A DNA stretch of 64,000 bases. Source: Telmatactis stephensoni (taxonomy: Eukaryota > Cnidaria > Anthozoa > Actiniaria > Isophelliidae). The position numbers and the translations under genes are program-made. Location of the stretch: contig JALIZF010001420.1 of NCBI GenBank assembly GCA_029948255.1, forward strand, positions 229,414 to 293,413. The letters are read 5' to 3'. The notes under the pieces are model-generated. The model worked only from the letters and a program-made list of their open reading frames with translations. It had not been told where the DNA came from and ran no database searches. This document shows positions 13,833 through 64,000 of this stretch, one piece after another; position 1 is the first letter of the stretch, and the number at the start of each line of letters is the position of its first letter.

Positions 13833-16800
13833 ATGAGTCGAATTGTAATAGTATTGGCAATTTCAGCCGTTTTTTCGGCTGTGATTATTCACCAATTGTA
13901 CAATCGTTTCTTTGGTATTCAAATTCCTGACGGTTACAACGCCAATTCTACATTTGCATACAGAGGCATTGCATTCCTTTTTCATTCCAGTCGAGATTGG
14001 GTAGGTGTGACTTTCTGTATATTTTTAGGCTGTACGTGTCGTCGTGTACTGCAATTAATTTTTCATATTACAAACATTAAATGCAGATTCCATTGTTTTT
14101 TTGAGCACTGTTCCACTGTGAGCAGCATTTTCCGCGCGTTTAACCGGAACATAATTAAGGGCAAGAATTAACCAACCATCACTTCCTTAACTCTATTATA
14201 AAACCGCAGTGGCTATTCATACGGTAACCGTACGGCGACTTGTAATTTCTATTCGTACGGACATTCAAATATTTCGATAATTTAAAGCAATTATTTAAGA
14301 TACCGATTTTAAACTATCATAACTTTGTTTAAAAGTAGGTAACAATTTGAGAAAGCTTCAACGCTCGAGATTTTATCGTGTAGATTTAGCCGAGCACAGA
14401 GTACACCAAGACGAAAAGCGACACTTAGAAAAATTTCACCGATTCGAAGACAGTGAAGGTCACTAACTAGCAATGACACTATCTTATTTAATTAACGGTA
14501 GATTTGCCATTTTTAGTTTTTGTTATCGAATTATTTCCATGAACGAATAAAGGCATGTTTTTATAGACGATTTATTCGCATTTCGGCTCGTAATTAGAAG
14601 GAAAAAACCCTCCGTACGAATAAGTCACGCACGCTATTCATACGGCAGCATTTAAAAACCATGTCTAAACTCAAAGAGGCCTAAATTCTGTGCAGTCAAA
14701 CTTTTTCTCAATACTTTAAGCATTGGTTTTAGACACTACGAAAATTGTTTCTGAATGTTCTGGTCCCATTTGGGCTCGATTTGCAGAGGAAAACTCCATG
14801 TCCGTACGAATAAGTCACGCACGCTATTCGTACGGCAGCCACGTTTTGTACATTTTTATCCTATTCAAGTACAAGTCTTTCTGTACCTGAATTTATCTTA
14901 CCTTTTTAAGTGATATTAGCGATCCAGAATTATTGTACGGATTTCGAATTTCGAATTTCTAATTCATGTACATCTGCGTGTGTCATATTGCGTGACGGAA
15001 TTTTCGGCGTGATCCTGGGTACCAAGAAAAATTCGCGGGAAACTTCGTACAACTTCTTGCAGCTACGTGGATTGTGGAATAACTTTTGGTTCCTTTTATT
15101 TACAACAATATTACTACTTCAAACCATTACTCATTCAAGCCATGAGAAGGACTAGAGGTATTTATTACTTGTGCTTTTTCTGTCATAGCTTATCTGCATT
15201 TGCAGCTTACAAATTTTCATTATTCCTTAGGGAATTTCACTAGGGTCCAAAGAGAACCTGATCCAATATTGCAGGTAAACTTGTAAACCTTGGATACAAG
15301 TGATATTGTGTTTTGTTATTGTTAAATGAAGTAATGAATTAGTGTCAATGAAGGTCATCAGTAGAGGCCAGTGCATATTTGTGGATTGCAAGTAGCTATA
15401 GCAGTTGTAGTACCTCTGAATAATCTGCATACACAACTAATATAACCTCAAAAATCTTGACTGTACAAAGTATACAAAGCCTTTTAAATATCAAATTTTA
15501 AGTTTCAATGAATGAATAACGTGATTGGATGGATGGATAAACTATGTATTTAATAAAAGAATGAATTACTGACTGTGAATCACTGAATCACTAAATTCAA
15601 TCACTGACTGAATGATTGCATAAATGGCTGATAAATGAATGCATTTCACAGTTTTAATTGTTATAGGGATCATAAAGATCATTTAAACAGCATAAGTTAC
15701 TGTAGTATAATCTTTTTTCAGGATATCATCATCAAAAACAGGTTTCATAAAGTAAACAGAGGTCTACTGTCTGAAATTGCATTCCCTTTGACTGGCAGTA
15801 CTGGAGCACAAACATTTCATTCAAAAATGCCTAAGGTTTTAACAGACCTTGGGACAACACATTTTATACCATGCCAAACTGATTGCCAAATAATGTTGCA
15901 AACCTTTCAAAAAAGAAAAGAATTAAATGCAATTTCCTGTTCTCTTGGTACTTATGACAAACAAAGGGTAGAGATATTACTCAAAATCCATGAACTAAAA
16001 GAGATTGCAGGCGCAGTTAAGTCAGAAAAGAAGTGGTTAGAGAAAATGGTAACCCCTCCCAATACAAATTGCTCTCCTCCCGAAGGCACAAGTGAGTTTG
16101 CTGATCTGATATTCCAAAACAATGATGGAAAAGTGGTGATCAACAAATCAGTGTTGACCTCTGATTTAGTAACACTGACTGGTGACAATTGGTTATCACT
16201 GTCATTAATACAGGCTTATGCTGACCTCCTTAACCTTAGTAAAGCCAATGGTAATTATACTAAAACCTATATTCTGAACAATCTTGTGGGATTGAAAGAA
16301 AAAGATTTGAAATTGCTTGGAGGAAAAGGAATGCAGTTTATCACATTAATTGTAAATGTTGCTGTTAAAGATGGTAAGACGTATGTCAGTAAGCATAACA
16401 TGCGTGGATGCCATTGGTCTTTGTTGTATATTGACACTCTTTCAAATAAGTGGCACTACATTGATACACTTGGTTGGGCAACCCCTGAAGACCTCGCTGA
16501 TATTGTAAATCCAATGGTACGTGCAATGTCATCCAAGAAGAAGTTACCAGCACAGGGAAGATTTGTTGCACACAAGTCAAACCCGAGGAGTGCAACTGGA
16601 ATCCACCACTGTGTTGGTAGCTGTTTGCCTAACATTCCACTTCAGAGCTGCTCATCAGTATGTGGTGTTATTGTAGTAGTTATGGCAGCAATATGCTCTG
16701 TCTTACCTACTCTATGGACAAGTGGATTTCTAAGCCAAACCTCTAGCCTACCTTGTTCTGTGAAATGGCTTTTAAAGCCATCAATGCATTCTAGTTATTT

Positions 16801-19800
16801 ACGTCGAGTGCTAATTCATTGGCTTTTGAGAAAGCACATTGATTTAAGCCTCCTAGGCTTTACCTTGTCTCCACATGGTAATATTAATGAGAGCCACTTA
16901 GATCATGAGCAGCAGAGTAAAACTGTTGATTCCAACATCAGTGATGATGATTTGATAACTGATATCAACAAACCAAATGATATGCATGATGATGGCGATG
17001 ATACGAAACCTGATGGTGACAATAACAAGCATGATGGTGGTCAAGTTGATGATGATGATGACAAGCCTGATGGTGACAATAACAAGCATGATGGTGGTCA
17101 AGTTGATGGTGATGATGACAAGCCTGAGGGTGACAATAACAAGCATGATGGTGGTCAAGTTGATGATGATGATGACAAGCCTGATGGTGACAATAACAAG
17201 CATGATGGTGGTCATGTTGATGGTGATGATGACAAGCCTGAGGGTGACAATAACAAGCATGATGGTGGTCAAGTTGATGATGATGATGATGACAAGCCTG
17301 GTGACAATAACAAGCATGATGGTGGTCAAGTTGATGGTGATGATGACAAGCCTGAGGGTGACAATAACAAGCATGATGGTGGTCAAGTTGATGGTGATGA
17401 TGACAAGCCTGAGGGTGACAATAACAAGCATGATGGTGGTCAAGTTGATGATGATGATGACAAGCCTGGTGACAATAACAAGCATGATGGTGCTCAAGTT
17501 GATGGTGATGGTGACAAGCCTGGTGAGAATAACAAGCATGATGGTGGTCAAGTTGATGGTGATGATGACAAGCCTGAGGGTGACAATAACAAGCATGATG
17601 GTGGTCAAGTTGATGGTGATGATGACAAGCCTGATGACAATAACAAGCATGATGGTGGTCAAGTTGATGGTGATGATGACAAGCCTGGTGACAATAACAA
17701 GCATGATGGTGCTCAAGTTGATGGTGATGGTGACAAGCCTGGTGAGAATAACAAGCATGATGGTGGTCAAGTTGATGGTGATGATGACAAGCCTGAGGGT
17801 GACAATAACAAGCATGATGGTGGTCAAGTTGATGGTGATGATGACAAGCCTGATGACAATAACAAGCATGATGGTGGTCAAGTTGATGGTGATGATGACA
17901 AGCCTGAAGATGATGGAGGTCATGAAGATGATGATTGTAGTGAAAAGCATGATGATGGAACTGGTATAACTATTGGAAGGGAATTCGATTCGTATGAGGA
18001 ACTGGAAGATGCCATTCAGATCTTTGAAAAGAAAAACTTTGTTAGTTTGTATAGGCGCAACTCAAGAAGCCTTAAAGCATATATTAAGAGATGTACAAAG
18101 AAAAAACCCAATCCCAATTTGACATATAGCGAAATTACCTTTGCCTGTGTTCATGGAGGAAAACAATTTAAAACCACCTCAAAGGGAAAGAGACCAAACC
18201 AAAGGTAGGCCAGCAGTGTGTGTTAATAACTTGGAGCCTGAAGATAACACAATTGCATCTTGATAACAAATTGTCACAAAAAAGAACAAAAAACCTATAA
18301 TTGCAATAAAACTACATTATTTCAGCTGCTCACCCTATTTACATGTGTTGCTCCCCTGAATTTTCTTCAGCAGCAAATTTATTTCTTGTTGCTTTTCTTT
18401 ATTCAAAGCACATTCCAAATGGGTTGTAAGGCTGTGATAAAGGTAACCATATCAAGAGATGCCCAAAAACTTGTTGTGCGTGAATTTGTCAACAAACACA
18501 ATCATGAAATAAATGAGGTAGGAACAATAAATAAAATCATGTAAGTGCAGTACCTAATTTTTGAAAGAGATCTGACATTTAGCTGATTCCTCATATATTT
18601 AACAGAAAAACAAAAAGTAAGTAAGTAATTTCTGTTTAATTTTCCCTCTTAAGAATTTATTCAAGCACCTTCCCAAGCAAAGAGGACTAAATAAGGACAC
18701 AAAAACTGAGGTACAACTAATGTTAAAGATGAGGGCAAACAAGAAGTTAATCCAACAACACATCAACCAAGGAACGGGAAAAGTTGTAACACTTAAAGAC
18801 ATCCATAATATGACACAAAAAACAAATGGTGGACTAGAAGAGCTGATCAAGAAAATGAAGAGTGTGCCAGGTATGAGATCTTACCACACATTACGAGTTA
18901 CAAGTTAGTAAAGATATGACCTTTAACCACCTCACAAACATGTTTAACTCCTAAAATTATATGCTTTCCTTTTTTTCATAAAAGTTGACACTGACATTAC
19001 TTTCTGATAGTAAATATGTAGGGGTATAAAAATCTAAAAGGATTGATTTTTTGTAGGTTCTAAAGTGGAGGTATACACCGATGAGGAAAAAAACCTGAAA
19101 GGTGTCTTCTATCAGGATGAACAGATGCAAAACATGTTTAAATCATATCCCGAGATATTTTTAGTTGATGCAACCTACAAACTCAATAACCTGAGAATGC
19201 CACTATATGTATTCTTAGTTGTTGATGGAAATGGGGAAAGTGAGATAGCTGCCCTCACACTGGTAGCAGATGAGTCAGAGGAAACTGTGCGCCAGATGAT
19301 GAAGTCTTTCAAGGAACATAATACAACATGGGGGGAAATAAAATGTATAATGGCAGATAAAGACATGACTGAAAGAACAGTGCTCAAGGAGGAACTCCCT
19401 GGCGCTGGTCTTTTGATCTGTCTTTTTCATACAATGCGAAGCTTTAAAAGAGAGGTGACAACGGAGAAAATGAACATATCAACTGACGAACGGACACAAA
19501 TCCTTGAAATCCTGCAGTGTATGGCCCATGCACGAACTGAGGAAGAATATAACAGCAACTACCAGCAACTAATGTCCATGAAATTTACTGCTGTAAAACG
19601 CTATTTTAATGAGAACTGGCATGACATAAGAGAACAATGGACACAATTTGGAAAAAACAAGTACCCACACTTCATGAATTATACTAACAATCGTCTTGAG
19701 TGTATCAACCAAAAACTTAAATCTGTTGTAAACCGTAATTCTGGGCTCATTGACTTCCATGAAGCTCTTCAGGACTGTATTTCATCGTTAAGAATAGAAA

Positions 19801-22800
19801 GGGATCATAGAGCTGCATCTATATTTCAAAAACGTCCAGCAGATCTAGGAAGTTTTTGTACCACTGAGCAAGAGTACTTTGATTTATGTACACCCTTTGC
19901 TTTTGCATTCGTTAAAAATCAACTCTCTCTTGTGGACAAGGTGGGAAAATTTAGGAAACAGCCTGGCAACAACCCGCATCTATATATATTGAACACCTCT
20001 GAAGGAGCTGTAGAGGTCAGCACAGACGGATGCACATGTCGTACTTTCAAGACAATGAAACTTCCTTGCAGGCATATATTTGCCTTAAGAAAAGAACTTG
20101 GAGAGGCATTATATTTTCCCAAGCTGTGCGACAAGAGGTGGTTGAAAAGTCACTATCTTTCTACCCATCGCATCTTCAAACATGATGATGCAAAAGTTAG
20201 TTTTGCACAAGAAAATGATTTTTCACCTGAAGATTCAATAACAGTTATAGAAGAAAAGAAAACCAGGTCTAGGGTACTCTCCCAGCATGAGAAGTATAGA
20301 AAAGCTTTTTTGCTGGCCCAGAAATTGGCAACCATTGCCAGTGAAGCATGTGGACAAGGTTTTAAGGACAAGCTTGCTGCACTGAATGACCTCATAGAAG
20401 CCTGGAGTGACAGGAGAACAACTGAGATGGACACAAACAAAGGAGAGGACAACTTGTCTACACTTGAAGAAACTGACAAAAACAACACACAAGATGTAAG
20501 AGACACACCTCATGATGCCAACAAATTTGACACAACTGAAGCTACAACTATTCCCACTGAATCTCTGGTGAACGGTAATATAGAAGAAGTAAAATCTGAT
20601 GCTGCATGCACATCCAAAGAAAAAGGTATGGCAAACAATATCACAAATTGATGTTTATAGTGTTATTAGTTTATATGCCATTCACCAATTTTTTTTAATT
20701 TATTGTTTCCCAGTTGATTTCTCTGAAATTAAGATGCCCCCAATAACGAGAAAGCGTGGGAGGCCAAAAGGAGCTGACCTCACGGCAATTGGACTGCCCA
20801 GAAAGAGAACAAAGCGAGGAAAACAGGGCCTGTTGAAACCAACTTTGTTCATCAACAAATCACCTACTGAAAAGGAAGAGTGTAAGCTTGATGTTAATAT
20901 GTAATATTATATAAGGTCAATTGAGACAATTAAGTACATTCTTTACTATATTGCCTTTTGCAGTCATACTACAAATGGTAACCAGTAAAGAAGTAATCCA
21001 AAAAGCTCTTGTAGAGGAAAAACTTATCACAGAAGAAGACCTTGAGCCTGCCTTGGAAAAAATACCTACCAAGCTTGTTGATGATAACATCAACATATAC
21101 AGGATAAAAAAGTATTTCACACACTCAGGCTGGAAAAAAATGATGTCTTTGGTTTCCAGAGTCAAAAAAGAAAAAAGTTGGCATTGCAAAAGCTGTTGCA
21201 GAGACTTGAATGACAAACAACAACAAATAGGATGTGATGTTTGCCTGGAGTGGTATCATATGTCATGTATTGGGAGATCTCGACCTCCAAGGACAAAGAC
21301 ATGGATATGTAGAAATTGCTGGTCCAATAAATAAGTATTAGATAGTCACTGAAGCCACCTGCATGTGTACCATAGTTCCAGAAAATATCCATACCCTGTT
21401 ATAGAGGGAATATGAAATTCTGGAGGGGAGGGGGTCCGAGAGAAAACAAAATTACAGAGTTTGTACGGAAAAATAGAAATTCCAGAGGATGTGGGTAATG
21501 AGGGTATGGATATTTCGTGAAACTAATATTGGATATATTATGTAATATTTATTTGCTTTTCTTAAGTGGCATTAGCTTAGAGTGTGTGTTTCTGGGTATG
21601 CTGGTGTTCTTTGATGACTGTACTGGCACAGCCCTTCCATTTTGCATTTGCCTGGAACATGTGCTGCTCTTAATAAGGAAACTTTTCTGCCCCGTGGAGG
21701 AGCTAGTCTTTCGCCTAGCCACGCGGGTTCTTTCTATTATCTCTTTCTTGCACCATAGAGGTGCTAGACTTTCAGCTAGCCCTATGGTCCCTTCCCCTTT
21801 AAAATCCTTCTGAACCTCCCTTTCCCCTGTAGAGGAGCTAGGCATCCGTCTAGCCTTACAGGATCTTGACCTCACTCCCCTTTTCCTCTTCCACCCCCTC
21901 TAATCTGTAAAGGTGGTAAGCTATCGCCTAACCTTACAGGCATCTTTCCTTATGCAAGCTCTTTCCATACAAGTGTTATGGCCCCTTCCCCTTTACTCTA
22001 TTAAAATTTGTCATAATGTTAGTCATTTTATGTGTTCTAAAAATAATTAGAACGGCATAAAAATCGGGCGTGCACTTTTTGGCCCATGTGGCCGTTTTTG
22101 AGTGTGGATGCTTCTTTGTTTGTGCCTATAATGTTTTTATGTCTGTCTCATTGGTCTGATAGTTTCTCCATACAGACCTAGTGCTGGTTTAATAAGTAGT
22201 TTACATCACACTCATGCATAATGCATAGACAGCATAGTGTTTATAAACCAAGGTTCAGTAACACTGTCATTGGCATGTTTATGTGCATGCATCTGCAGTA
22301 TAGTACAGGGCAGCATTTTCTTCCCTGAAACATGATTATTCATATTTTCAAAAAAAATGTAAAAATTAATATTCCACATATATATATATCTGTATTCTTA
22401 GGGCTTGTTTATGATTGATATTGAGGTTTTTCAGTCAAGTGATATTGGCAGATCAACAGAAGCCAAGGAAAGCCACAGAAGTATATAAATTATAAGGAAT
22501 AAATTGGAATATATATAAACATGGACATTATAAATGACTCATATATATGACTTCTTTGACTTTTTAAACTCTTTGAAAAAAATGATTCTTGGCATTAATT
22601 CCAAAACCACAACATTAGCAGTTAGAGCAGAACTAAATCGCTTCCCATTACATATTTCTATCTATATTTCAATGATCAATTTCTTCACTCATTTGATTAG
22701 TCATCAAGCTGGATGGTCTCCTTTCTGTTCATGACGACATGGTTATCTATGGCGTTGGAGAGACTGACGAGGCAGCACTAGAAGACCATGATCGTAAACT

Positions 22801-25800
22801 TGCCGCCTTCCTTGAGAGATGTAGAGAACGAGGCATCAAATTGAATAAGGCGAAGATGGAGCTTAGATGCACAGAGATTACATACCTGGGTCACGTGGTG
22901 ACCAATCAGGGGCTTAAAGCCAGACCCGGAAAAAGTCAGGGCCATTGTAGAAATGCCGGGACCTGAAGACATCAAAGCAGTACGCAGACTATGTGGTTTG
23001 TGAACTACCTCGCAAGGTTCCTGCCAAATCCTGTCGGATGTCCTAGAACCGATCCGACAACGCCAGGACGATGTAGAATGGCAGTGGAATAGTGCTCATG
23101 ACAAAGCATTTCAAACCATCAAGCTAAATGGTAACAAGTGCTCCATTGTTGAAATACTACGATACGCAAGCAGAGCTCACGGTCCAGTGCGATGCAAGTG
23201 ACAAGGGCATTGGTGTGGCCTTGCTCCAGAATGGTCAGCCCCTTGCATTTGCTAGCCGAGCACTGACAAACACAGAAACGAGATATGCCCCAATAGAAAA
23301 AGAAATGCTCGCAGTGGTATTCGTGCTAAACAAATTCAACCAGTATGTCTACGGCCTACCAGTGACAGTTAATAGTGACCACAAACCACTGGAAGCCATT
23401 GCACAGAAGCCGCTGAGGAATGCTCCCAAACGCTCCAGGGCATGCTTCTAAAGATCCAGAAGTATGACTTCAACATCGTTTACAAGCCAGGCACAAAGAT
23501 GTATCTGGCAGACACGCTAAGCAGAGCGTATATTTGCACACAACGAAGTCCCTGCGAGGAGTTTGAGCATGTCAACGCCACAAAGTTTGTTCTCATGACA
23601 GACAGAACAAAGGGACGAATCAGAGAAAGCACAGCGCAAGATGACGTGCTGCAGCAACTGACAAAGGCCGTCCTGAAAGGGTTGCCAGATAACGCTTATG
23701 AATGTACCAGCGACGCTGATGCCTTACTATGGTTTCCGCGACGAACTAGAGGCAGTACATGATGAGTTAGTATATAGAGGAAAACGACTTGTAATCCTAA
23801 AGAGTTTGAGACCAATGATGCGGCGAGTCACTGCACAGCTCCCATATTGGCATCAACGGCTGTCTGTGAGGGCCAGAGAGAGCATGTACTGGCCGTCAAT
23901 GAATGCGGATATACGGGCCTATGTGGCCCAATGCAAGACCTGCCGGTCATTTGAAAAACGCGCCAAGTCAAAGAGACGACTACGGAGCCATCCACCAACA
24001 GACAGGCCCTGGGAGAAGGTCTCAGCTGACCTTTTCACGCTGTAATGGCAAGGAGTACCTGGTTGTCTGTGACTACTTCTCCAACTTCATCGAGATCAAC
24101 TATCTAGGAGGCCAGCAAAGTCTTCTACTTGTGATGAGGAAGTTGAAAGGCTCATTTTGCAAGTATACGGCATCCCTGATTGCATGGTCACAGACAATGG
24201 CCCCCCAGTTACATCGGACAGTTTTAGGAAGTTCGCTGACAAATGGGACTTGACATTCAAACGAGCAATCCCGGGCACCAGCAAGCCAACGGCCTAGCAG
24301 AATCAGGTGTTAAGACCGCCAAGAAGTTGTTGCGCAAAGCAAAGCTGGATGGGCAAGACTCCTTTTTGGCTCTGTTGGCTCATCGCAACACGCCTTCAGA
24401 ATCAATGGGGACGAGCCCAGCGCAACGCCTTTTTGGACGACGAACCAAGACTCAACTTCCTGCCACTGCTGGATTGCTCAAGCCCCAAGGCATCGATACA
24501 GAATCCACAAAAGAGAGAAGAAAAATATCTCAGGCTAAGCAAGCACACAGTTACGACAAGCATACCAAAGATATGGAGACTTTTGAAGAAGGCGATATCG
24601 TGCGCATGCGACCTTTCCGTCTACATGAGAAGACATGGGACAAGGCAGTGGTTAGTAGAAGTTAGATCATCCGAATCGTATGACGTTGTGTGTAACGATG
24701 TACCTTACAGAAGGAATCGAGTGGACTTGAAACACACACCAGAGATGCCTTTAGAAAAGTCAAAGACTGCAAGCAAGGCATGTGATGCACCGCTACCAGC
24801 AGCTGGAGCCAACAGTGTTGGGGAAGCCACCACCCGCGACACCTGTGGCTCCAGCCACACCCAATCCTGTGATGACAACAAGACCCAAGGGACTGATAAG
24901 GGAACCTGCTTATTTGAAGGACTTTGTAAGATCCTAAATAATGTACAAGGACCCTTTATAGATAAAGACTTTGTATGATTCAAAAGACACTGTCACAAGG
25001 ACTCCATAGTATAGATTTGTTTTATTGTTTCGTTCCTGTTGTACTGACTGTCAATTAGATCTTAAAGGAGGGGGGATGTAACGTGATACTTAACTTCCTT
25101 TAGACTATCTGTATCATTATCGGTATCGGATTACTTGATCATGTATTGACTTGTATTAGCTCTTGGTTTCTCAATAAACGCATACAGAGAACCATACAAT
25201 TACGGGTTTCTAAAGATTTGAATGATAGTGGACATTTCTCTTGGTATACTACTTTATCGTATTTAGTAAAATTAGGTCAATCTAATTCAATGGAAATTCA
25301 TGATAAATCATTTACCAAACAATTTAGTACTTTTCTTAAATATATTTATATGAGTGACTGGGAAAAAGAAACAGAGAGAATAAGATCAGGAGAAATTAAA
25401 TCAAAAGTAGAATTATTTTTAAGAGTAAAACATAAACCTCATTTTGAGGAATATTTAGATATGATTAGAGATTTTAAAGTACGATCATCCGTTTCAAAGT
25501 TTAGAATGTCTGCTCATAACTTTCCAATTGAAAAGGGGAGACATTTGAATATTGAAAGGGATAAAAGAAAATGTGACATTTGTGAAAGTAGAGAAATTGG
25601 TGATGAATTTCACTACTTTTTCAAATGTTCCAACAATTTTATTAGAATTAGAAAACAATTCATAGACAAAATATTAGAAACAAACTCGATGTTCGAGTCG
25701 TTTGATTACCAAAATTTATTTAAATATATAATAAATATGAAGGACGAAAATATAATTAAAATAAGTGGTCAATATATACATGAACTACTAGAATGTTACA

Positions 25801-26093
25801 GATTAGTTAAGTCAGTTATGAATACAAAATGAATGTATAATTGTTATTATATTACGTACAGTTACTGTTAATTCTTTAAATATATATCTTCATGTAAACA
25901 AAGACAACTAACTTCAGATAGTGATATCCAACTCAACATATATTGCCAATGCATATATATAGGTTTGAATCACGGACCTGGAGCTAGTTATATGATATAC
26001 ATTCACATATTTAGAAATCTGTTATTCTTCTTTTTATTTCTTTAATTGTTGGGTTATACTCATGTATGAAAATACCAAAGTACCAATAATAAA

Positions 26094-26138
<45 letters not shown>

Positions 26139-29100
26139 TGAAAAGACATCACATCCCCATCACATAATGTCACATGAAAAACCTCATCAGATAGCAAGTT
26201 ATTTCAATAAACCCATATTAAAATGCAGTATATCTGGTGTACTTCCATATATGGACCATATATGTTTATTACCGTACGAATAGCGTGCGTGACTTATTCG
26301 TACGGACATGGAGTTTTCCTCTGCAAATCGAGCCCAAATGGGACCAGAACATTCAGAAACAATTTTCGTAGTGTCTAAAACCAATGCTTAAAGTATTGAG
26401 AAAAAGTTTGACTGCACAGAATTTAGGCCGCTTTGAGTTTAGACAAGGTTTTTAAATGCTGCCGTACGAATAGCGTGCGTGACTTATTCGTACGGACATG
26501 GAGTTTTCCTCTGCAAATCGAGCCCAAATGGGACCAAAACATTCAGAAATAATTTTCGTAGTGTCTAAAACCAATGCTTAAAGTATTGAGAAAAAGTTTG
26601 ACTGCACAGAATTTAGGCCGCTTTGAGTTTAGACAAGGTTTTTAAATGCTGCCGTACGAATAGCGTGCGTGACTTATTCGTACGGACATGGAGTTTTCCT
26701 CTGCAAATCGAGCCCAAATGGGACCAGAACATTCAGAAACAATTTTCGTAGTGTCTAAAACCAATGCTAAAAGTATTGAGAAAAAGTTTGACTGCACAGA
26801 ATTTAGGCCGCTTTGAGTTTAGACAAGGTTTTTAAATGCTGCCGTACGAATAGCGTGCGTGACTTATTCGTACGGACATGGAGTTTTCCTCTGCAAATCG
26901 AGCCCAAATGGGACCAAAACATTCAGAAACAATTTTCGTAGTGTCTAAAACCAATGCTAAAAGTATTGAGAAAAAGTTTGACTGCACAGAATTTAGGCCG
27001 CTTTGAGTTTAGACAAGGTTTTTAAATGCTGCCGTACGAATAGCGTGCGTGACTTATTCGTACGGACATGGAGTTTTCCTCTGCAAATCGAGCCCAAATG
27101 GGACCAAAACATTCAGAAACAATTTTCGTAGTGTCTAAAACCAATGCTAAAAGTATTGAGAAAAAGTTTGACTGCACAGAATTTAGGCCGCTTTGAGTTT
27201 AGACAAGGTTTTTAAATGCTGCCGTACGAATAGCGTGCGTGACTTATTCGTACGGACATGGAGTTTTCCTCTGCAAATCGAGCCCAAATGGGACCAAAAC
27301 ATTCAGAAACAATTTTCGTAGTGTCTAAAGAGTATTGAGAAACAGTTTGACTGCACAGAATTTAGGCCTCTTTGAGTTTAGACATGGTTTTTAAATGCTG
27401 CCGTATGAATAGCGTGCGTGACTTATTCGTACGGAGGGTTTTTTTCCTTCTAATTACGAGCCGAAATGCGAATAAATCGTCTATAAAAACATGCCTTTAT
27501 TCGTTCATGGAAATAATTCGATAACAAAAACTAAAAATGGCAAATCTACCGTTAATTAAATAAGATAGTGTCATTGCTAGTTAGTGACCTTCACTGTCTT
27601 CGAATCGGTGAAATTTTTCTAAGTGTCGCTTTTCGTCTTGGTGTACTCTGTGCTCGGCTAAATCTACACGATAAAATCTCGAGCGTTGAAGCTTTCTCAA
27701 ATTGTTACCTACTTTTAAACAAAGTTATGATAGTTTAAAATCGGTATCTTAAATAATTGCTTTAAATTATCGAAATATTTGAATGTCCGTACGAATAGAA
27801 ATTACAAGTCGCCGTACGGTTACCGTATGAATAGCCACTGCGTTATAAAACTCTATCTTTCAATTTCTCAGCTACAAATATTTCTGAATCCGCCTTTCTT
27901 TTGAGCTAGTTTAGGGATTGATCCTTCATTCTGTCATGGGGGTGGGGTTGAAGGGGTTGGAGGGTGGTGGTCATTGAAGGAAAAATGCCAAGAAAGATAT
28001 GAACCCCACCCCACCCTTATCATGTGATAAACAAATTATGGGCCCCTTATTCATCTGTTATCAAAATACCTCTTCTTTTTGCAGTGTCTTTTAGGTTTCC
28101 AATGGGGCCTGGTTGACAACTATTATATTTGCTATAGAAATACATTACATTTCCTTGCACAAATAGTCCATGTTGAATCATTTAAAGATCAGCTAGAAAT
28201 CAATGATACAGAGATATTTGGTACTAGAGTAAGGATATACAGGCCCATCAACAACACAGAGGGTAATATTGAGAAGAAAGAGGAAAATAAAGAATTGGAG
28301 CTTCTTCCTGCATTGATTTACTATCATGGAGGTGGCTGGACCATAGGAGGCTTAGGTATGAAGTGAAGCAGTGCAATATTATTCAGGTAGACTTGCTCCA
28401 AGTCTCGCTCGTTGATGTTTTCCGTTGTTTGGGCTTCCTGTGCCATTATTCGGATTCTCAGTTTACGAGCACTCTCCGAGGGAAACGGCATGAAAGAGGA
28501 GAGGAAAAACGAGCCGTTCCCCTCGGAGAGTGCTCGTAAACTGAGAATCCGAATAACGACACAGGAAGCCCAAACAACGGAAAACATCAACGAGTGAGAC
28601 TTGGAGCAAGTCACTCTATTATTCAGGTGGATATACATAGTAACAGGCTTGGGCCAGCTGGGTTCCTGTAGTATGGCTTCTGATCCAAATATACTGGTTC
28701 CTTTGTTCCCTCTTCACCACAGATCCTGACTACACAAGCTTTTAATTACCAATTTTTTTTCAATACACTCTCCAGATGAATACGATTTATTATGTAGAAG
28801 AATTGCTGCAGTTGCTCAAGTGGTTGTTGTCAGTGTAGAGTAAGTTATACATTGCAAAATTCAAACATTAACGATTGAGGACATCAGTCCAAAGATAATA
28901 TAGGTGAACTTTGATCAAATAGTAACTTTTCCTATAAATTTCTTAAAAATGAAGTTACTGCCTTTTTGATAATGATCAGGGCCGGATCCAGGGGGGTCCC
29001 ATGGTTGCCCGGGAATCCCTTTTCTCATTCTAATGAAATAATAATAATATATTATTATTAATCTTTAGCCAGGGTAGACCCATCAGCTAAAGCTGGTATC

Positions 29101-39571: not shown

Positions 39572-39759
39572 ATGTGCAGCGTGAGAGGCTTCTTCGGCTC
39601 GAAAAGTTTTCCCTCCAGTTTTCTCTGGTTTTCCAAATATTTATTCTTCCATTTTGAACGCGATCTGGGCTGCCTGTGTTTTTAGTTAGAGTTCAGTCTT
39701 TCTGATTATCATCGAGGAACGCCTGGTAAATCATTGCACTTTGGGTTTGCTTGTCGATC

Positions 39760-42700
39760 ATGAGTCGAATTGTCATAGTATTGGCAATTTTAGCCGTTTG
39801 TTCTGCTGTAATTATTCACCAATTGCACAATCGTTTCTTTGGTATTCCAATTCCTGACGGTTTTAACCCCAATTCAACTGTTGCTTACCGAGCTGTAGGT
39901 TTCGTTATCAGTTTTGGCAAAGATTGGGTAGGTGTTGTTTATTAAACTTTTAATAGCTGTTATAAAACAACTCAAACTTCTTTAATTCTGAGCCTAATCT
40001 TTCAACCTTTTTATACATGATATTTCAACATTTACCTTTCATTTTGAGCAAGCAATTTTTCAAGTATTTTTGTTGAATTATATTAATGATATTTTCTATT
40101 TTAAAGTGTCATTTAGGTTGGCGATGGGGACTTGTGGACAACTATTTCATAAGCCTTCGGAATGCATTAAATTTCTTTTCACGAATTGCCATTGTACACA
40201 CATTTAAAGATCAGCTAGAAATCAATGATACAGAGATATTTGGTACTAGAGTAAGAATATACAGGCCCAGCAACAACACAGAGGGTAATATTGAGAAGAA
40301 CGAGGAAAATAAAGAATTGGAGCTTCTTCCTGCATTGATTTACTATCATGGAGGTGGCTGGACTGTAGGAGGTTTAGGTATGTTACAAAGTCAAATCCTA
40401 GAAGCCTTTAAACAATAGGTAGCCTAAACATAGCATCAGTGGATTAATTGTGATATTATGGTTTCTCAATTAATTTTTGAATTTTCATATGGTATCAGGA
40501 ATGTGCTTCTAGGATATCACTTCAAAGTATATAACATTTGCTAATATATCTTCATGACATTAGTCTGATAGTCAAAGAACACATTGGTGTAGAAATATAG
40601 TCTAGGGTTACCAAATTTTTCGATGTACTGCTCTCACTAAAAAATAATTAAATAAATATCTCCACAAATTTAAGAGTACAGAAACAGTTCTCCTGTATAT
40701 TTTTCTAAAATATATTCTCTTTAAAATTAACTTTTATCCAAGATATTTTGTATGTCAATTATGGATAAATGATTTTTTGAAGTTTAGGCCATGTTGGCTA
40801 AAAGTTACCAACCATGATCTGCAGACATCGACTCACCAACAAAACCTGACTTGTGGGGTAGGGGAGATAAATGTATTTGCTGTATATATATAATATCTCC
40901 CTTACCCCCAGAGTCAGGTTTTCAGTAAGATGAGGATAAAGAATTTGCCAATGACATGTGATTTGTAACACTGTTACTTGTCTTTATCTTATACATACTC
41001 CAGATACAGTGGATACATTCTGTAGGAGAATTGCTGCAACTGCTCAAGTTGTTGTTGTGAGCACAGAGTAAGTTGTACAAATGCTGCAAAATTTTAGTAG
41101 GACTATATAGTAGTATACATTATGATGATATGATGCATGATGATGAAGATGATAATGATGATGATAATTTTCTGCTTGACCAGGCCAGTTATAAACATAT
41201 TATTGGTTGTGTGGTAACAAAAGAAATGTCATTTCCAAATAATGATGTCTTCTTAATATTTTACAGTTACAGGCTATCACCAGAATACCTGTACCCTACT
41301 GCTTTTAATGACTGCTATAATGTTGCCGTTGGTCTTCTAAACACTGGAGTACAGTATGGTGTTGATGTTAAAAGAGTTGTTGTGGCTGGAGACAGTGCTG
41401 GTGGGAATTTAGCTGCTGCTGTTTCTCATTATCTTGCATATGTTGGTGAGAAACATTGTAGAAAACAGTATTTAGCTGGACAGGTTAGTTGCACATAATT
41501 AATTCTTTTTGTAGCAATTCTCTGAATATATAGTGAATAATAATGCAAACACTCACTGGACCAGCACTAGCTGTCCATATTAGAGAGGTGTCTGCTTTAT
41601 AGACTGAGAGCTTCTCACCATAAAGCCTCTCTTACATGATGCAACTTATTCTGCAACATTGCTTGCAACACAGAGATGAACCATGTGTACATCTCTACAA
41701 CAGGTGCACAAAACATTTGCAGGTTTAGTATCAAGTTCTACTTTTCCTCTGCTTGGTCGTTTACTCTCCCATACTGGAACAGTTGAGAGCAGTCAAGAAC
41801 CAGTTGGATTTCTTGCTTTTGATTTTCAGATTTCAGGAAAATAAATAAATGCAAGGACCTGGTGTTGATAAAACTTTCTGGGCATTTTATTATTTCAATG
41901 TATTCAAGAAAGTTCAAATTAGTGTGTTTCAAATGCATTTACAACAATCGATATAATTCTAGACTTTGATTGAAGTTGACCAGTGGAAATACGCACTTGA
42001 TCTACAACACACACAAATCCAGCAGTAATGTCCAATACTTAGCTTCTATAGTTTGTATTGTCATTCTGAAGAATTGCTACCGTATTTTTGAAAATATATA
42101 CGATCGTAATTTCCTCCTGACCAGTACTTTTCCGATTTACGTTTTGTTGATGTTCTTGAAGACCAATAGGATGACAGCTTCAATGAAACTGAATCGCATT
42201 TTATGTACCTATCAATGTCTTGCCCCACCGGGGGGAGCCCGGGCATACAGGGGCTATTGACAAAAAAACTTGTGCCCATGGGAGGGGCTGCTTAGCATTT
42301 ATTGACACAGGGGTCCCCTAGGGTAGGGTTTATTGACAGTTTTGACAGATTTTAATATTGTATTATTGTATTCAATCTTCTATCTGGATTAATGTTAAAT
42401 CATACTAACAGAAATTCAATTCAGGAATTCTGGAATTTCAATTGTCATTTTTTCAGGGTCCCTAAGAGGGGCTTATTGACAATTTTTTTCAAAAAATGTC
42501 AATAGCCCCTGGGTATGCCCGGGCTCCCCCCATTGGGGCAAGACATTGATAGGTGCATTATACCATTTTTGACATCTACAAATCTCTCAATCTGCTTTTC
42601 TAGGATAAACATATTTACAATTCTATATGTTAGCACAAACAGTAAGCCATGCACTCATTGAGCGACTATTTTTGTAATGGATTCTCTTGATAGATCCTGA

Positions 42701-43338
42701 TATACCCAAGCCTCCAGATGTTGGATTTTAACCTCCCATCTCACAAAAACAATGAAGTAGGAGTGGCAACCTCAAGGCGAGGTGTCGCAGAATTTGCATC
42801 AATGTACTTAACAGGAAATCTTGACCTTGTTGATGCAATGCTTGAAGGAAACCACTCAAAACACTTGGAAAACACAACTTTTATGTCATATGTTAGAACA
42901 AGTACAGAATCAAACAATGTACCATCAGAAGAAAGCTTTGACTTTGAAGAGACTAAAAAAAGCATTAAAAAGCCTTTTGTTGATATGAGTGACACAGCTG
43001 CAGAAGCTCTTATCCACTTCAAAGGTTCACCACTCATGGCTTCAAACTTTCGTGGAATTCCAACAACTTTCCTGCTCACGGCAGAGTTTGATCCTTTGAA
43101 AGATGAAGGATTTCTATATGCAAAAAGACTAAGAAATGAAGGAATAGAGGTTGTTCATAAGCATTATTATTCTTTCCATGGATTTGTTACTACAACAACT
43201 GAACCATGGCCTAATAGCCCTTTTGAAACACAAGAGGGAAAGGAAGCGATGCAAGACATAATAGTTGCTGTTAACAGAATGAAAACTGCACGTAGGCAAA
43301 CAGAAGAGGAAGATGATAATGAAGAAAAAGATTATTAA
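39760..43338 (+). CDS. AADAC-like: AADAC/NCEH1-like microsomal esterase, copy 2
   Basis: Tandem paralog of the gene at 13833-30973. Exons 39760-39927, 40107-40377, 41004-41067, 41267-41483 and 42694-43338 have exactly the same lengths and phases and give 454 aa. It has the same signal anchor (IVIVLAILAVCSAVIIH), HGGGW, GDSAGG with Ser211, Asp373 in EFDPLKDEG and His402 in SFHGF. Introns are short (intron 1 about 180 bp). Exon 4 differs from copy 1 at only two bases of 217, while exon 1 and the first third of exon 2 differ strongly. Intron 4 holds a MITE (42205-42556). The C-terminus is acidic and differs slightly from copy 1. A likely polyadenylation hexamer (AATAAA) is near 43848. Substrate is not predictable from sequence. 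Confidence 0.9.
42205..42556. mobile_element. MITE in esterase copy 2 intron 4 (ends ACCTATCAATGTCTTGCCCC)
   Basis: The left end ACCTATCAATGTCTTGCCCC plus GGGGGGAGCCCGGGCATA is mirrored at the right by TATGCCCGGGCTCCCCCC and GGGGCAAGACATTGATAGGT. Several TTATTGACA motifs inside are also in inverted pairs. Confidence 0.8.
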
Positions 43339-57002: not shown

Positions 57003-59738
57003 TCAATCCTCCGGTGACTGTCGAAGTCTGTCAAACTGTAGAGTTGAAGTTCGAGGGCCAGAAGAAAACGTGCACCTTGTTGCTATGGGTGAAAACTTAG
57101 ACACGTGACCATACATCTGTGCATGCGTCTGACTACGTGATCTATGTATACCCATATTTGGAAACGCAGTAGTGGTTGCCATGGTTTCCACTGGTGGAAT
57201 AACTTGTTGCTGGGTAACTGCAAATTCTTCTTGATGGAACTCGTTTTGACCTTGTGGTGATTGGTAGTTGGTTGCTAGGATACATTCAATGGCGTTGACA
57301 ATGTCATTGTCACAACCCTGAAGGATTAACTCCAGTGTGTAACGTCGTAGTGTTGGGAAGATTTTGACCAGGACGTCAAGAGGCATTGGAGGCTTAGGCG
57401 CAGCATTTCTTTTAGCAATCCTGTCGTGTCTTGAGAACCAAGAATAAACTGAGACATTATTACTATATCTGTGTGCAGCTATGATTGGTTCACTGCTGGC
57501 TTTTGGTATCATATCTACTAACAATGGACTGTCCATTCTGTCTGTCTGTCCATCTTCTGTTGACTGGCTAGAGTGGCGTCGCATTTTTGGTTGAAGTTCA
57601 TAGTTCTTTGTTCGTTCGGCTGGCCTTCCTGTGCGTTCTCGTTTTACTCCGACTACTGCTGTGGTCTCGTGAAAGGTTTCTGAAAAGTCGTGTGTAACAT
57701 ATTCAAATATTAGAATATTTGTACTAAAACTAATCTCATACTTTTGTATTCATTTGCCTAACATTCATTCAAATACAATCATTTGGTATACACCTATTTC
57801 AAAAAAGGTTGTCACCGCTAAGAGCGATAGGCGATAGGTAATAGGTCATTCCAAGACCGCAAAGCACTATTGATTTCTAATTGATTTACATATGAATAGC
57901 CAAATATTTGATGGAAGAGTGTAAAGAAAGATTTAGGATGGCTTAATTAAGAAATCAATAGTGCTTTGCGGTCTTGGAATGACCTATTACCTATCGCCTA
58001 TCGCTCTTAGCGGTGACAACCTTTTTTGAAATAGGTGTATATCTCATTGTCTGTAGAACGCTAATTGCACTGAAAAAAGATGGCAAATAATTTTTGAATA
58101 GAACCTTATGAACAGCGTTCGCACGATGCCCTTCACAGTAATTTTCATCCTATAACAGAAATTTCACTGCAGAAACGTCTAAATAGCCGATCGTCAAAAT
58201 CGTTTTTATTAATTCACTCATTCATTCACTGTCACTATTCATTCATTCGTTCGTTCGTTCGCTCATTCATTCATTCATTCATTCATTCATACTTTCTTTT
58301 TTTCTTTTTTCCTTTTTTTCACTTGCAAATTTTAGAATAAAACTAAAATACACCTTTGAGTTTCTCGGGTTAAGAGTTACTACTAATAACTGTATGTTTC
58401 GGGCGCCTATTCGTAGCAAATAACGCAACGACAGCACACAAGTTTCATGTGACTTTGCATTGCGTTGTAACTCGTTCTAGACGTTCTTACTAGATCTGTG
58501 TGTTTGAAAAGTCTAATTCTATTGACCAAAATTATTGGTACCTGCAGATATTTTATGAGTTTGTGTGTTACAAAGTATAGGTAATATCCAGTGATTTGCA
58601 TTATTTAGTGATATAAACTTGCTAATGGATTTTAACTGGTACTTAATTAAACTCTTCTACGCTGTACACTTGATGCTATACGCGTGAGGTTTCACTGAAG
58701 TGTGTTGGCATTTGAAATTTACTCTCTAAAACGTACTATATAGTACTACAATTTTGTACTAGATTTATTTGTATTTAACCCGTGAGCAAAAACTAATGGC
58801 TAACGTTCAATAGTCAAATGGACACAAGAAAACAATACTGATGAATTAACAATTCACGGGTTAAGTCAAACCACTCTATATGTTTATTTAATTTTTGTAG
58901 TCTTTAGCTATCAACAGCTCGTCACTTTGAAGAAAATCAAAGCAAAAAAGACCATCGACAATTGCCGGTACATATCAGGACAATTAGTAAAACTAACAAA
59001 CTCATCTAGAACTGAGTAGCAGTGACTATAAACTCCACTTATGTACCATCATAACAAGTAACACTTAGAACGTAATTTTCCTAGCTTAATTCATGCGTTC
59101 TTGCTCAGTTTCTTCCTCTCTTTCGTAATTCATTCTTTCTTTCCTTTCCTTTCATTCTTTCCATTCTGTCTTTATATTTCCTAGCTGTCGTTCTTTCTAC
59201 ACTAGATATCGTTTCTTTCTTTCCTAGCTGTCTTCTTTATTTAGAATTACTTCAAATCAGTTGCAGTCTACATTCATGGATCGTTCTTCGTCCATTATCC
59301 TATCCCTGCACTTTAACCAAAATGATATCATTGAAGGCGGTAAAATAATTTGTTATTCTTACCGTTTTGACTGTCTAGCACAGAACTATTTGAAAACGTC
59401 TTCATTTGCGACAACGTCGAGCTCTCATGACACTTCTGATCATGAACGTCAGTTTCACCAACCTGATTAATTGACGTGTTATAGTCACCCATGTTTTGAC
59501 TGGCGCGCTCTGCTATTCTCTGTACAGTTCGTCCTGGAGCAGAGTGATATCTTAGTAACGCTACTCTCGCAGCAGTTATTTTCTGTCTTTCAGAAATAAG
59601 CACACACTTCGCGCAAACACAGTCACGCCACTGACAGTAATGCTTATGTCCCTTGAGGTCCGACTCCATGTTGTGATTTCTACAGCGAGCGCATTTTGGA
59701 TTCCGAAACGAGCCTTTTGATGCTTCCTCGGCTTGCAT
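57003..59738 (-). CDS. DMRT: DMRT transcription factor (DM + DMA domains)
   Basis: DMRT proteins are DNA-binding regulators of sex determination and neural or germ-cell development in animals. Two exons, 59738-59363 and 57679-57003 (minus), join in phase to 350 aa. The DM zinc module (about residues 14-66) has the expected ligands: CARCRNH, H-K-H-Y-C, C-V-C-A-K-C, then [20 protein letters not shown] (CUE-like) domain is at about 223-262 ([25 protein letters not shown]), so this belongs to the DMRT group that keeps DMA (A1/A2/3-type, and cnidarian relatives). Between them lies a basic RERTGRP stretch. The start is the ATG at 59738. The intron contains a very young MITE (57787-58041) and an older one (58775-58864). 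Confidence 0.93.
57787..58041. mobile_element. Young 255-bp MITE with perfect 91-bp inverted repeats in the DMRT intron
   Basis: TATACACCTATTTCAAAAAA at the left is followed by 71 further bases that match the reverse complement of the right arm without a mismatch by eye. The loop (about 73 bp) is AT-rich. The ends begin with TATA, so any TA duplication merges with them. Confidence 0.88.
58775..58864. mobile_element. Short MITE (TTAACCCGTGA ends), same family as 38903-39046
   Basis: TTAACCCGTGAGC at the left and AATTCACGGGTTAA at the right are inverted. The interior AATAGTCAAATGGACACAAG plus AAAACAATA is shared with the MITE at 38903-39046, and the ends resemble those of the 31880-38891 element. 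Confidence 0.65.
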
Positions 59739-59744
59739 TTCCAA

Positions 59745-60850
59745 GTTAATTAGCAGTGCCGTCTTGCTGAGTTTAAAGTAGGACCACCTCGTGTCGGCTT
59801 TTTGCTGTCATTAGGACGGTACATAGAACTCCACTTTTATTATTAGACTGGAAATAGCGACTTTAAATATTTAAGTGTTTATTGATTATAGTAAAAGAAA
59901 AAAAATTACTTCATTCATATAGATTACTAGTTAGCTTTTATGTTCATTCATGACAGTACAATTAATAATTTGTTTAGTACAATTACAACACGTGGTCAAA
60001 TTCTGCTTTCTGCCGTCTCGTAAGCTATTTCAAACCACCATAAACTGTGAAAGCAGAGAAGGGCCACCTATTAGTTTAGACTTCCGACTTGAAAATTTCC
60101 AACTTTCCGAAAATTTCTGACTTTTCATTTTTTATAAATACAAACTTTTTCAGACAATTATCGGAAGTCCAAAAGTAGAAGTCAGACTCAGGTGTTTCAA
60201 GGCTTGGTTTGACCCTGATTTCCACCAAAATTGGGGTTTTAAGAACGTCATGTCTTATTCTTGATGGAAAAGAGTTATTTTAGAAAAGAGGTCACGTGAC
60301 CTAATTTGCATATATATTTTTCTCAAATATCTTTTACGTTGAAGTCGATAGACAAGATGCAAAGGCTTATTCATATATGTGCTCAAAATACCTAACAAAT
60401 GCAGTGAATTTAACTTCGATCAACTAATAAGGTTGTGTACTCTCCATTTTCAAAAAATCATTTTTGTCGCTTTAAGGTCACGTGACCAACAAAATGAAAA
60501 AATTGTTGCCTTTAATCACTTTCACTTCTGGACCTATATCTGACACACACAAATAAAAGCCAATTGAGTTATTAATGGAACAAAAAACTGTGAGATTGGC
60601 ATAAAAACCAAGCCTTAAATCGCCTGAGGAAACAGGTGCTGGTCCTTCTCGGCTTACGTAGTTTATGGTTGCTTTCACTCCTCTAGCGACTCAATCAAAA
60701 GCGAAAGCAACTTTATAATGCTCCGTTTTAATTGTAATTACATTTGCGAAATTTTCTATCGTTGTGCGTACTTATGCTTGCATCGTGAAACAGTGGTAAC
60801 GATCATTGTTAAAATTGAAAACAGCATAGATGAACACTCTATGGACGATG
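59745..60850. other. DMRT 5' flank; repeats with TCACGTGA palindromes
   Basis: No gene seen. GGTCACGTGACC-type palindromes occur at about 60290 and 60477, with related ones at about 61355 and 61371. The surrounding text (TTTGCATATATATTTTTCTC; AAAATGAAAAAATTG) suggests a dispersed repeat rather than a promoter. 60241-60245 repeats TTTTAAGAACGTCATG-type sequence once. Confidence 0.45.
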
Positions 60851-63059: not shown

Positions 63060-64000
63060 TGTACCAATTTACGCCATTTTTGACCATTTTCCATGGGCTA
63101 TAGCCTTTGCTTTATTACGATTTTGGACCATTTACCATGGGCTATAATAGCCTTTGCTTTTTGTGGATTTTTGGCCATTTTTGAGCATTTTGCATGGGCT
63201 ATAGCCTTTGCATTTTTTCGATTTTTGGCCATTTTTGAGCATTTTGCATGGGCTATAGCCTTTGCATTTTTCGATTTTTGGCCATTTTTGAGCATTTTTA
63301 ATGGGCTATAGCCTTTGCTTTTTTTCGATTTTTGGCCATTTTTGAGAATTTTGCATGGGCTATAGCCTTTGCATTTTTTCGATTTTTGGCCATTTTTGAG
63401 CATTTTTAATGGGCTATAGCCTTTGCATTTTTTCGATTTTTGGCCATTTTTGAGCATTTTGCATGGGCTATAGCCTTTGCATTTTTTCGATTTTTGGCCA
63501 TTTTTGAGCATTTTGCATGGGCTATAGCCTTTGCATTTTATCGATTTTTGGCCATTTTTGAGCATTTTGCATGGGCTATAGCCTTTGCATTTTTTCGATT
63601 TTGGCCATTTTTGAGCATTTTGCATGGGCTATAGCCTTTGCATTTTTTCGATTTTGGCCATTTTTGAGCATTTTGCATGGGCTATAGCCTTTGCATTTTA
63701 TCGATTTTGGCCATTTTTGATCATTTTTAATGGGCTATAGCCTTTGCATTTTTTCGATTTTTGGCCATTTTTGAGCATTTTTAATGGGCTATAGCCTTTG
63801 CATTTTTTCGATTTTGGCCATTTTTGAGCATTTTTAATGGGCTATAGCCTTTCCTTTTTTTCGATTTTGGCCATTTTTGATCATTTTTAATGGGCTATAG
63901 CCTTTGCATTTTTTCGATTTTTGGCCATTTTTGATCATTTTTAATGGGCTATAGCCTTTGCATTTTATCGATTTTTGGCCATTTTTGATCATTTTTAATG
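63060..64000. repeat. Tandem repeat of 53-56 bp units running off the window
   Basis: At least 17 units, each with the palindrome GGGCTATAGCC(T) followed by TTTGCATTTTTTCGATTTTTGG-like and CCATTTTTGAGCATTTT-like sequence. The first units are the most diverged. Variants (AGCATTTTGCATGGG or ATCATTTTTAATGGG) come in runs, as expected from local duplication. Frames on both strands (AIAFAFFRF, KCKGYSPCKMLKNGQKS) are artefacts. Confidence 0.92.

Follow-up and report, generated by a model that had tools for sequence, protein, structure and literature searches.

Predicted one-chain architecture of a Mutator-like transposase from the cnidarian Telmatactis stephensoni: SENP-like protease, ZSWIM-type core and PHD finger

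Can one transposase polypeptide combine the means to move DNA with a protease of the type that removes the small ubiquitin-like modifier (SUMO) and with a module that reads a histone mark? The question is raised by a gene in a stretch of 64,000 nucleotides of the Telmatactis stephensoni genome (contig JALIZF010001420.1, positions 229,414 to 293,413; this whole stretch is called the window, and its own numbering is used below). Eight predicted exons at 15142-21334 of the plus strand splice into a 1658-residue frame with a single terminal stop, all introns being GT-AG. From N- to C-terminus, the chain would consist of a SENP/Ulp1-like protease, an acidic linker, ZSWIM3_N, an RNase H-like DDE (Asp-Asp-Glu) core, a SWIM finger, an AT-hook and a PHD finger. 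Our best explanation of the locus is an apparently autonomous Mutator-like element (MULE) encoding this fusion as its transposase, with the roles proposed below; judged from the sequence and a structural model, it is given a probability of about 0.78.

One predicted chain

The domains are distributed unevenly over the exons. Exon 3 (15722-18204) encodes the protease domain, the acidic repeat and the beginning of ZSWIM3_N; exon 4 (18409-18517) completes ZSWIM3_N, a FAR1-like region, and is followed by exon 5 (18654-18870). Exon 6 (19057-20625) contributes the RNase H-like MULE transposase core and the SWIM finger, exon 7 (20714-20881) an AT-hook motif (KRGRPKG, at ~20752-20772), and exon 8 (20964-21334) the C-terminal region with the PHD finger (~21194-21319). 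The original prediction, that these exons join without a stop or phase error into 1,658 residues, was borne out when the frame was recomputed, and the putative catalytic residues of the protease (H251, D268, Q328, C334) and of the transposase (D994, D1057, E1171) are each where it had placed them. A Pfam scan of the product, which it had proposed as a check, recovers ZSWIM3_N (3.1e-8), ZSWIM1-3_RNaseH-like (1.2e-41), MULE (2.5e-21) and PHD (2.6e-7), places SWIM slightly below the cut-off (19.0 against 19.6 bits) and leaves the C48 protease unmatched. The core is thus of the MULE/ZSWIM type with its DDE residues, and these are conserved: in gap-free rows of an alignment of 114 rows from 110 proteins, D994 is kept in 106/108, D1057 in 109/109 and E1171 in 106/107.

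The same order of domains is found elsewhere. At C218 of the same genome one stop-to-stop frame, 1601 residues long and free of interruptions, runs through a protease-like region, an acidic repeat unlike that of the window, ZSWIM3_N, the RNase H-like core, a sub-threshold SWIM, an AT-hook motif and a PHD finger, at ~34 percent identity to the window protein. The C218 element has tandem-repeat terminal inverted repeats (TIRs) of its own and flanks that agree at 8 of 9 letters; a near-copy, C266, is broken off after 1126 residues. Because the C218 frame starts after an AG at the point where exon 3 of the window gene begins, this family may also have a short upstream exon. P0001, a 1493-residue prediction on a 240-kb contig, is collinear with the window protein except for the linker (39 percent identity in the protease and 34 percent elsewhere); its PHD finger is detected by alignment and motif, not by Pfam. 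Since P0001 is collinear and the C218 family has the order in one frame, the architecture is more than chance.

These relatives also bear on the possibility that a protease gene and a neighbouring ZSWIM3-type transposase gene have been joined only on paper. In Paramuricea clavata the two halves are indeed annotated apart, as P0007 and P0029, and the N-terminal homologues found are short proteins. The latter is explained by the search itself, which admitted only proteins of 0.55 to 1.75 times the query length. Exon 3, moreover, continues by itself from the protease into ZSWIM3_N, P0001 is a single prediction, and the C218 frame covers both parts. Because of that frame, the collinear P0001 and the location of P0007 and P0029 on equally long contigs (76171), a paper-only fusion is very unlikely, and the sequence makes separate genes for protease and transposase an unlikely arrangement. 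The proposal of a one-chain fusion inside an intact animal transposon is supported, by the uninterrupted frame of the sister family and by open sibling copies with target-site duplications.

The transposon and its sibling copies

The ends of the element are defined. Its left TIR (14205-14839, plus strand) starts with CGCAGTGGCTATTC and includes ~1.4 units of a 190-bp repeat; its right TIR (27218-27842, minus strand) has on its inner side a tandem array of 6.2 copies of that 190-bp repeat (26272-27435). Positions 14196-14839 pair in inverted orientation with 27848-27218 (97 percent over 645 columns), and from the ends of the element at 14205 and 27842 inward, the first 403 bases of the two TIRs are identical. 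The target-site duplication TTATAAAAC directly adjoins on either side (14196-14204 and 27843-27851). At 13,638 bp the window element is longer than three other copies (10.4-10.9 kb), a difference due partly to a retrotransposon that inserted later: a plus-strand segment (22709-25198) carries broken Ty3/gypsy-type pol pieces (reverse transcriptase, RNase H, integrase zinc-binding), whereas the four remaining long copies have 22 bp at this point, so that the segment was a subsequent arrival. At 25104-26138 lies a 242-residue open reading frame followed by a (TTA)n run, in which Pfam finds no clear match and which resembles the end of a non-LTR (long terminal repeat) retrotransposon caught inside the element; the other long copies have this stretch from 25199 on.

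Sibling copies were sought in the assembly (483.5 Mb, 1782 contigs; the window copy lies on C532) with a 356-base TIR query. Among the 40 scored of 74 candidates, 19 match at ~100 percent. They are the paired ends of five long elements (C3, C122, C532, C701, C853) and of four short ones of 1.4-1.8 kb that were read at their ends (C152, C153, C263, C297), and an unpaired end on C635. The remaining 21 scored matches are 77-79 percent alike. They lie on C1001, C18, C288, C243, C194, C223, C28 and others, several of them paired ~1.2-1.4 kb apart, and probably represent a related family of short elements.

A 9-bp duplication is perfect at six of the nine elements with both ends read: in addition to the window copy on C532, at C122 (TATCACAAA), C853 (TTTCTAAAA), C701 (TTTAAATTA), C263 (TAAATTATA) and C153 (TAAATTATT). 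At C152 the flanks agree at 8 of 9 letters; the flanks of C3 and C297 show no target duplication. (In the short C297 copy, at 186631-188419, one flank, GAAATTTTATT, is the reverse complement of the other, AATAAAATTTC.) TIRs combined with a duplication of 9 bp, the length typical within the 8-11 bp range of MULEs, are what this class of transposon leaves. Exons 4-8 are identical among C3, C122, C853 and the window copy. The whole frame is open in C122 (1566 residues) and C853 (1397 residues), and their proteins are identical to that of the window outside the acidic repeat, so that the search for further copies with the same domain order, suggested originally, was answered in the same genome, by these two and by the related C218. 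C3 lacks the window stretch 14840-15798, which includes exons 1 and 2, and C701 carries insertions and one stop. On sequence grounds this pattern of copies is that of a recent burst, and the element is apparently an autonomous MULE that has been recently mobile.

The seven introns, the ZSWIM3 family name and the intact catalytic residues might also be expected of a domesticated host ZSWIM3-like gene amid transposon debris. This is scarcely credible here: the gene-bearing element recurs at several other sites with TIRs of its own and different perfect target duplications, and the short copies have the same outer TIR. For the window copy, the target duplications rule out a fixed locus devoid of TIRs and duplications.

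Judged from exon order, the element apparently interrupts intron 1 of an alpha/beta-hydrolase-type gene whose ATG, at 13833, lies 363 bp before the insertion. Such Abhydrolase_3 genes, presumably arylacetamide-deacetylase-like, are duplicated in the window (13741-14008/28073-30973 and 39666-43338), the transposon apparently occupying intron 1 of the first copy. A clean empty site was sought in the paralogous gene (39-43 kb) and none was found: the exons align and the intron around the insertion does not. Farther along are a DMRT-type gene on the minus strand (57003-59807), with a DM domain and a DMA motif, and, at the window end, a tandem array of ~16 copies of a 54-bp unit (63147-63995).

Protease, PHD finger and their possible roles

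The protease domain (16055-16843, plus strand) is recognized through its predicted fold. The original prediction had made its case depend on a C48 fold turning up in a profile search; Pfam does in fact miss the window's domain, and the predicted fold is nevertheless SENP-like. Modelled from 20 rows that include more diverged ones of the same genome, the domain reaches a mean predicted local distance difference test score (pLDDT) of 79.7 and a predicted template modelling score (pTM) of 0.75, and its best structural matches are SENP1, SENP2 and Ulp1, with viral CE-clan proteases listed lower; prediction from 22 rows of close homologues gave a pLDDT of only 40.7. In the 22-row protease alignment, His is kept in 20/20, Asp in 19/20, Gln in 19/19 and Cys in 19/19 of the rows covering the column. 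The spacings of 17 and 6 in the H-D-Q-C set agree with those of SENP1. With human SENP1 and SENP2 and yeast Ulp1 the modelled domain thus has fold and catalytic residues in common; it differs in being 15-18 percent identical to them over aligned residues and in having Val before the catalytic Cys. The SENP/Ulp1-type (C48) fold is supported by the model, and residues and fold would fit cleavage of SUMO-like conjugates. P0012-P0017 and P0023, whose listings include a C2H2 zinc-finger domain, have this protease domain as well; in P0012 and P0017 there are also proline-rich repeats.

The PHD finger resembles readers of a particular mark. Its 13 matches in the PDB at E<=0.001 are chains of TAF3, CXXC1, ING4, ING1 and BPTF, whose PHD fingers bind histone H3 trimethylated at lysine 4 (H3K4me3). 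A survey of 111 proteins (the window protein, P0001 and 109 relatives) finds the strict C4HC3 motif in 23, which is a lower bound, since some of the other 88 are fragments and at least one Pfam-detected PHD finger (P0066) escapes the motif. Among these 23, Trp occupies position His-2 in 21, and an aromatic residue occupies the position two before the first Cys, also in 21 (18 Trp, 3 Tyr). Both positions line up with Trp of TAF3, in which they form the aromatic cage. The sequence is consistent with a PHD finger of the TAF3/ING/BPTF type that would read a histone mark.

What such a chain might do can be outlined as follows. Its DNA-binding parts would hold the TIRs, and its DDE core would excise and insert the element with a 9-bp stagger. 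The PHD finger would tie the complex to nucleosomes that carry H3K4me3 near gene starts, and the protease would there remove SUMO, or some related modifier, from proteins at the complex, for instance silencing or repair factors or the transposase itself, the single chain holding these three activities at one place. That the transposase reads H3K4me3 near active gene starts and in the same place desumoylates silencing or repair proteins, all with one polypeptide, is put forward tentatively, with more doubt than confidence; there are hints of a transposase able both to choose and to alter the chromatin in which its element moves. A correlation between H3K4me3 and the insertions of maize Mu has been published (PMC2774946), and a role of transposon-borne Ulp1 domains in transposition has been suggested (PMC2836005).

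The acidic linker is encoded by a 57-bp tandem repeat (16990-17907, plus strand; 16.4 copies in the window). The large acidic repeat had been presented as part of the fusion. As a functional part it is doubtful, because its units number 16, 11 and 2 in the window copy, C122 and C853, which are otherwise identical in protein.

The protease adjoins this linker of unconstrained length, and some viral CE-clan proteases, members of the group seen lower among the fold matches, act as maturation enzymes. It might accordingly cut the transposase chain, or guard it against SUMO- or ubiquitin-linked turnover, playing no part in chromatin, and the PHD finger might be a protein-protein module only. We regard this as unlikely, though a serious contender: the top fold matches are SENP1, SENP2 and Ulp1, and the two aromatic positions of the PHD finger that line up with Trp of TAF3 are kept as already given. 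Gene pieces are, furthermore, often captured by MULEs, and the extra domains could be passengers devoid of a role in an ordinary animal MULE. Many listed relatives have no protease, it has decayed in C308, C389 and C792, and P0012-type homologues combine it with C2H2 fingers. Passengers of this kind are nonetheless quite improbable, given that catalytic residues and domain order are kept among the window family, C218 and P0001 at ~34-39 percent identity.

Several observations weigh against a working one-chain fusion with the roles proposed. Exons 1 and 2 (15142-15157 and 15231-15274), which supply 20 residues and the start codon, are identical in two sibling copies and find no support outside the window's family: the best scores upstream of C218, C266 and C389 were equalled by 46, 44 and 6 of 100 shuffles, that is, at shuffle level or weak. 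These exons are still only predicted. The protease has no Pfam C48 match at E<=1 (the relative P0002 has one at 0.088, below the cut-off), no sequence match to a SENP is better than E 0.7, and the residue before the catalytic Cys, here Val, is usually Asp. Of its remnants in the same genome, C308 has lost His and Asp, C792 has Glu in place of Gln, and C389 is interrupted by stops. The one insertion site that was placed relative to a gene says nothing on targeting. In a tree of 31 rows, finally, the four rows with a protease fall into two lineages (window and P. clavata; C218 and P0001) separated by apparently protease-free rows, some of which may be truncated gene models; three changes are needed. 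Because apparently protease-free relatives separate the two lineages, not every element of this kind needs the protease.

With 65 of 500 label shuffles as low as three changes, the protease is not clearly clustered on this tree. An old fusion followed by losses or exchange is tentatively favoured, because the two lineages have a homologous protease and share the exon boundary where it starts. Viral contigs, scanned once, yielded no relatives. This animal MULE is apparently young and perhaps still able to move; with open copies and with its ends and target duplications defined, it offers a direct test bed for two questions: whether Ulp1 domains take part in transposition, and whether a transposase PHD finger steers insertion to H3K4me3.

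Comparison with known systems

The original prediction had named plants alone as a source of known Ulp1-carrying MULEs. Animal precedents have been published too: PMC2836005 lists Mutator elements with Ulp1 in hydra and lancelet as well as in plants. These have in common with the window element a MULE-type transposase and a C48 protease in a DNA transposon; compared by description, the window protease differs in being N-terminal and too diverged for Pfam. P0135, in which C48 and a PHD-like Cys cluster follow the SWIM region, a different order, may be of this Ulp1-carrying kind; no sequence link was found between its C-terminal C48 and the N-terminal protease (E 1.2).

The same source describes hydra Ginger1-9_HM, which, like the window element, joins an animal transposase to both Ulp1 and PHD; it differs in its Gypsy-integrase-type core, its 4-bp target duplications and the C-terminal position of the extra domains (PMC2836005). 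The window element has neither such a core nor a 4-bp duplication, and an identity with Ginger1 is rejected. The legend of Figure 1e in that paper mentions both Ginger1 and Mutator transposases in connection with Ulp1 and PHD domains (PMC2836005), so that an animal MULE with both may already be published. In the searches made of open-access literature, no MULE transposase was found that has a SENP-like protease at its N-terminus and an AT-hook and PHD finger at its C-terminus; this is a weak negative, as Repbase Reports lie outside that literature. Among predicted proteins, P0037 (aphid), P0041 (sea slug) and P0035 (sea star) share the ZSWIM RNase H-like core and the PHD finger with the window protein, the first two ZSWIM3_N as well; unlike it, they are listed with no N-terminal protease.

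Among the closest likenesses is that to Rehavkus, and the element is placed in a ZSWIM1/3 - Rehavkus-like group of MULEs as part of the best explanation. In the accessible parts of the published accounts, Rehavkus (Rehavkus-1_TC and others) is the outgroup of the MULE tree and is described with a PHD finger, a minisatellite before the 3' TIR and 9-bp duplications (PMC6446971), and Rehavkus-1_TC as a 9.5-kb element with a 164-bp unit within its inverted termini (PMC10218199). The window element likewise has the 9-bp duplication, the PHD finger in its transposase and tandem repeats in or just inside its inverted termini, the 190-bp array taking the place of the minisatellite at the 3' end; the size of Rehavkus elements, ~9.5-10 kb, is counted as a further likeness (PMC6446971, PMC10218199). 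It differs, as far as a comparison by description rather than of proteins goes, in its N-terminal SENP-like protease, and the published hosts of Rehavkus in those accounts are insects and annelids. Because its TIR of ~630 bp exceeds the 26-400 bp tabulated for Rehavkus (a range, not a strict criterion; PMC6446971), the element is called Rehavkus-like rather than Rehavkus.

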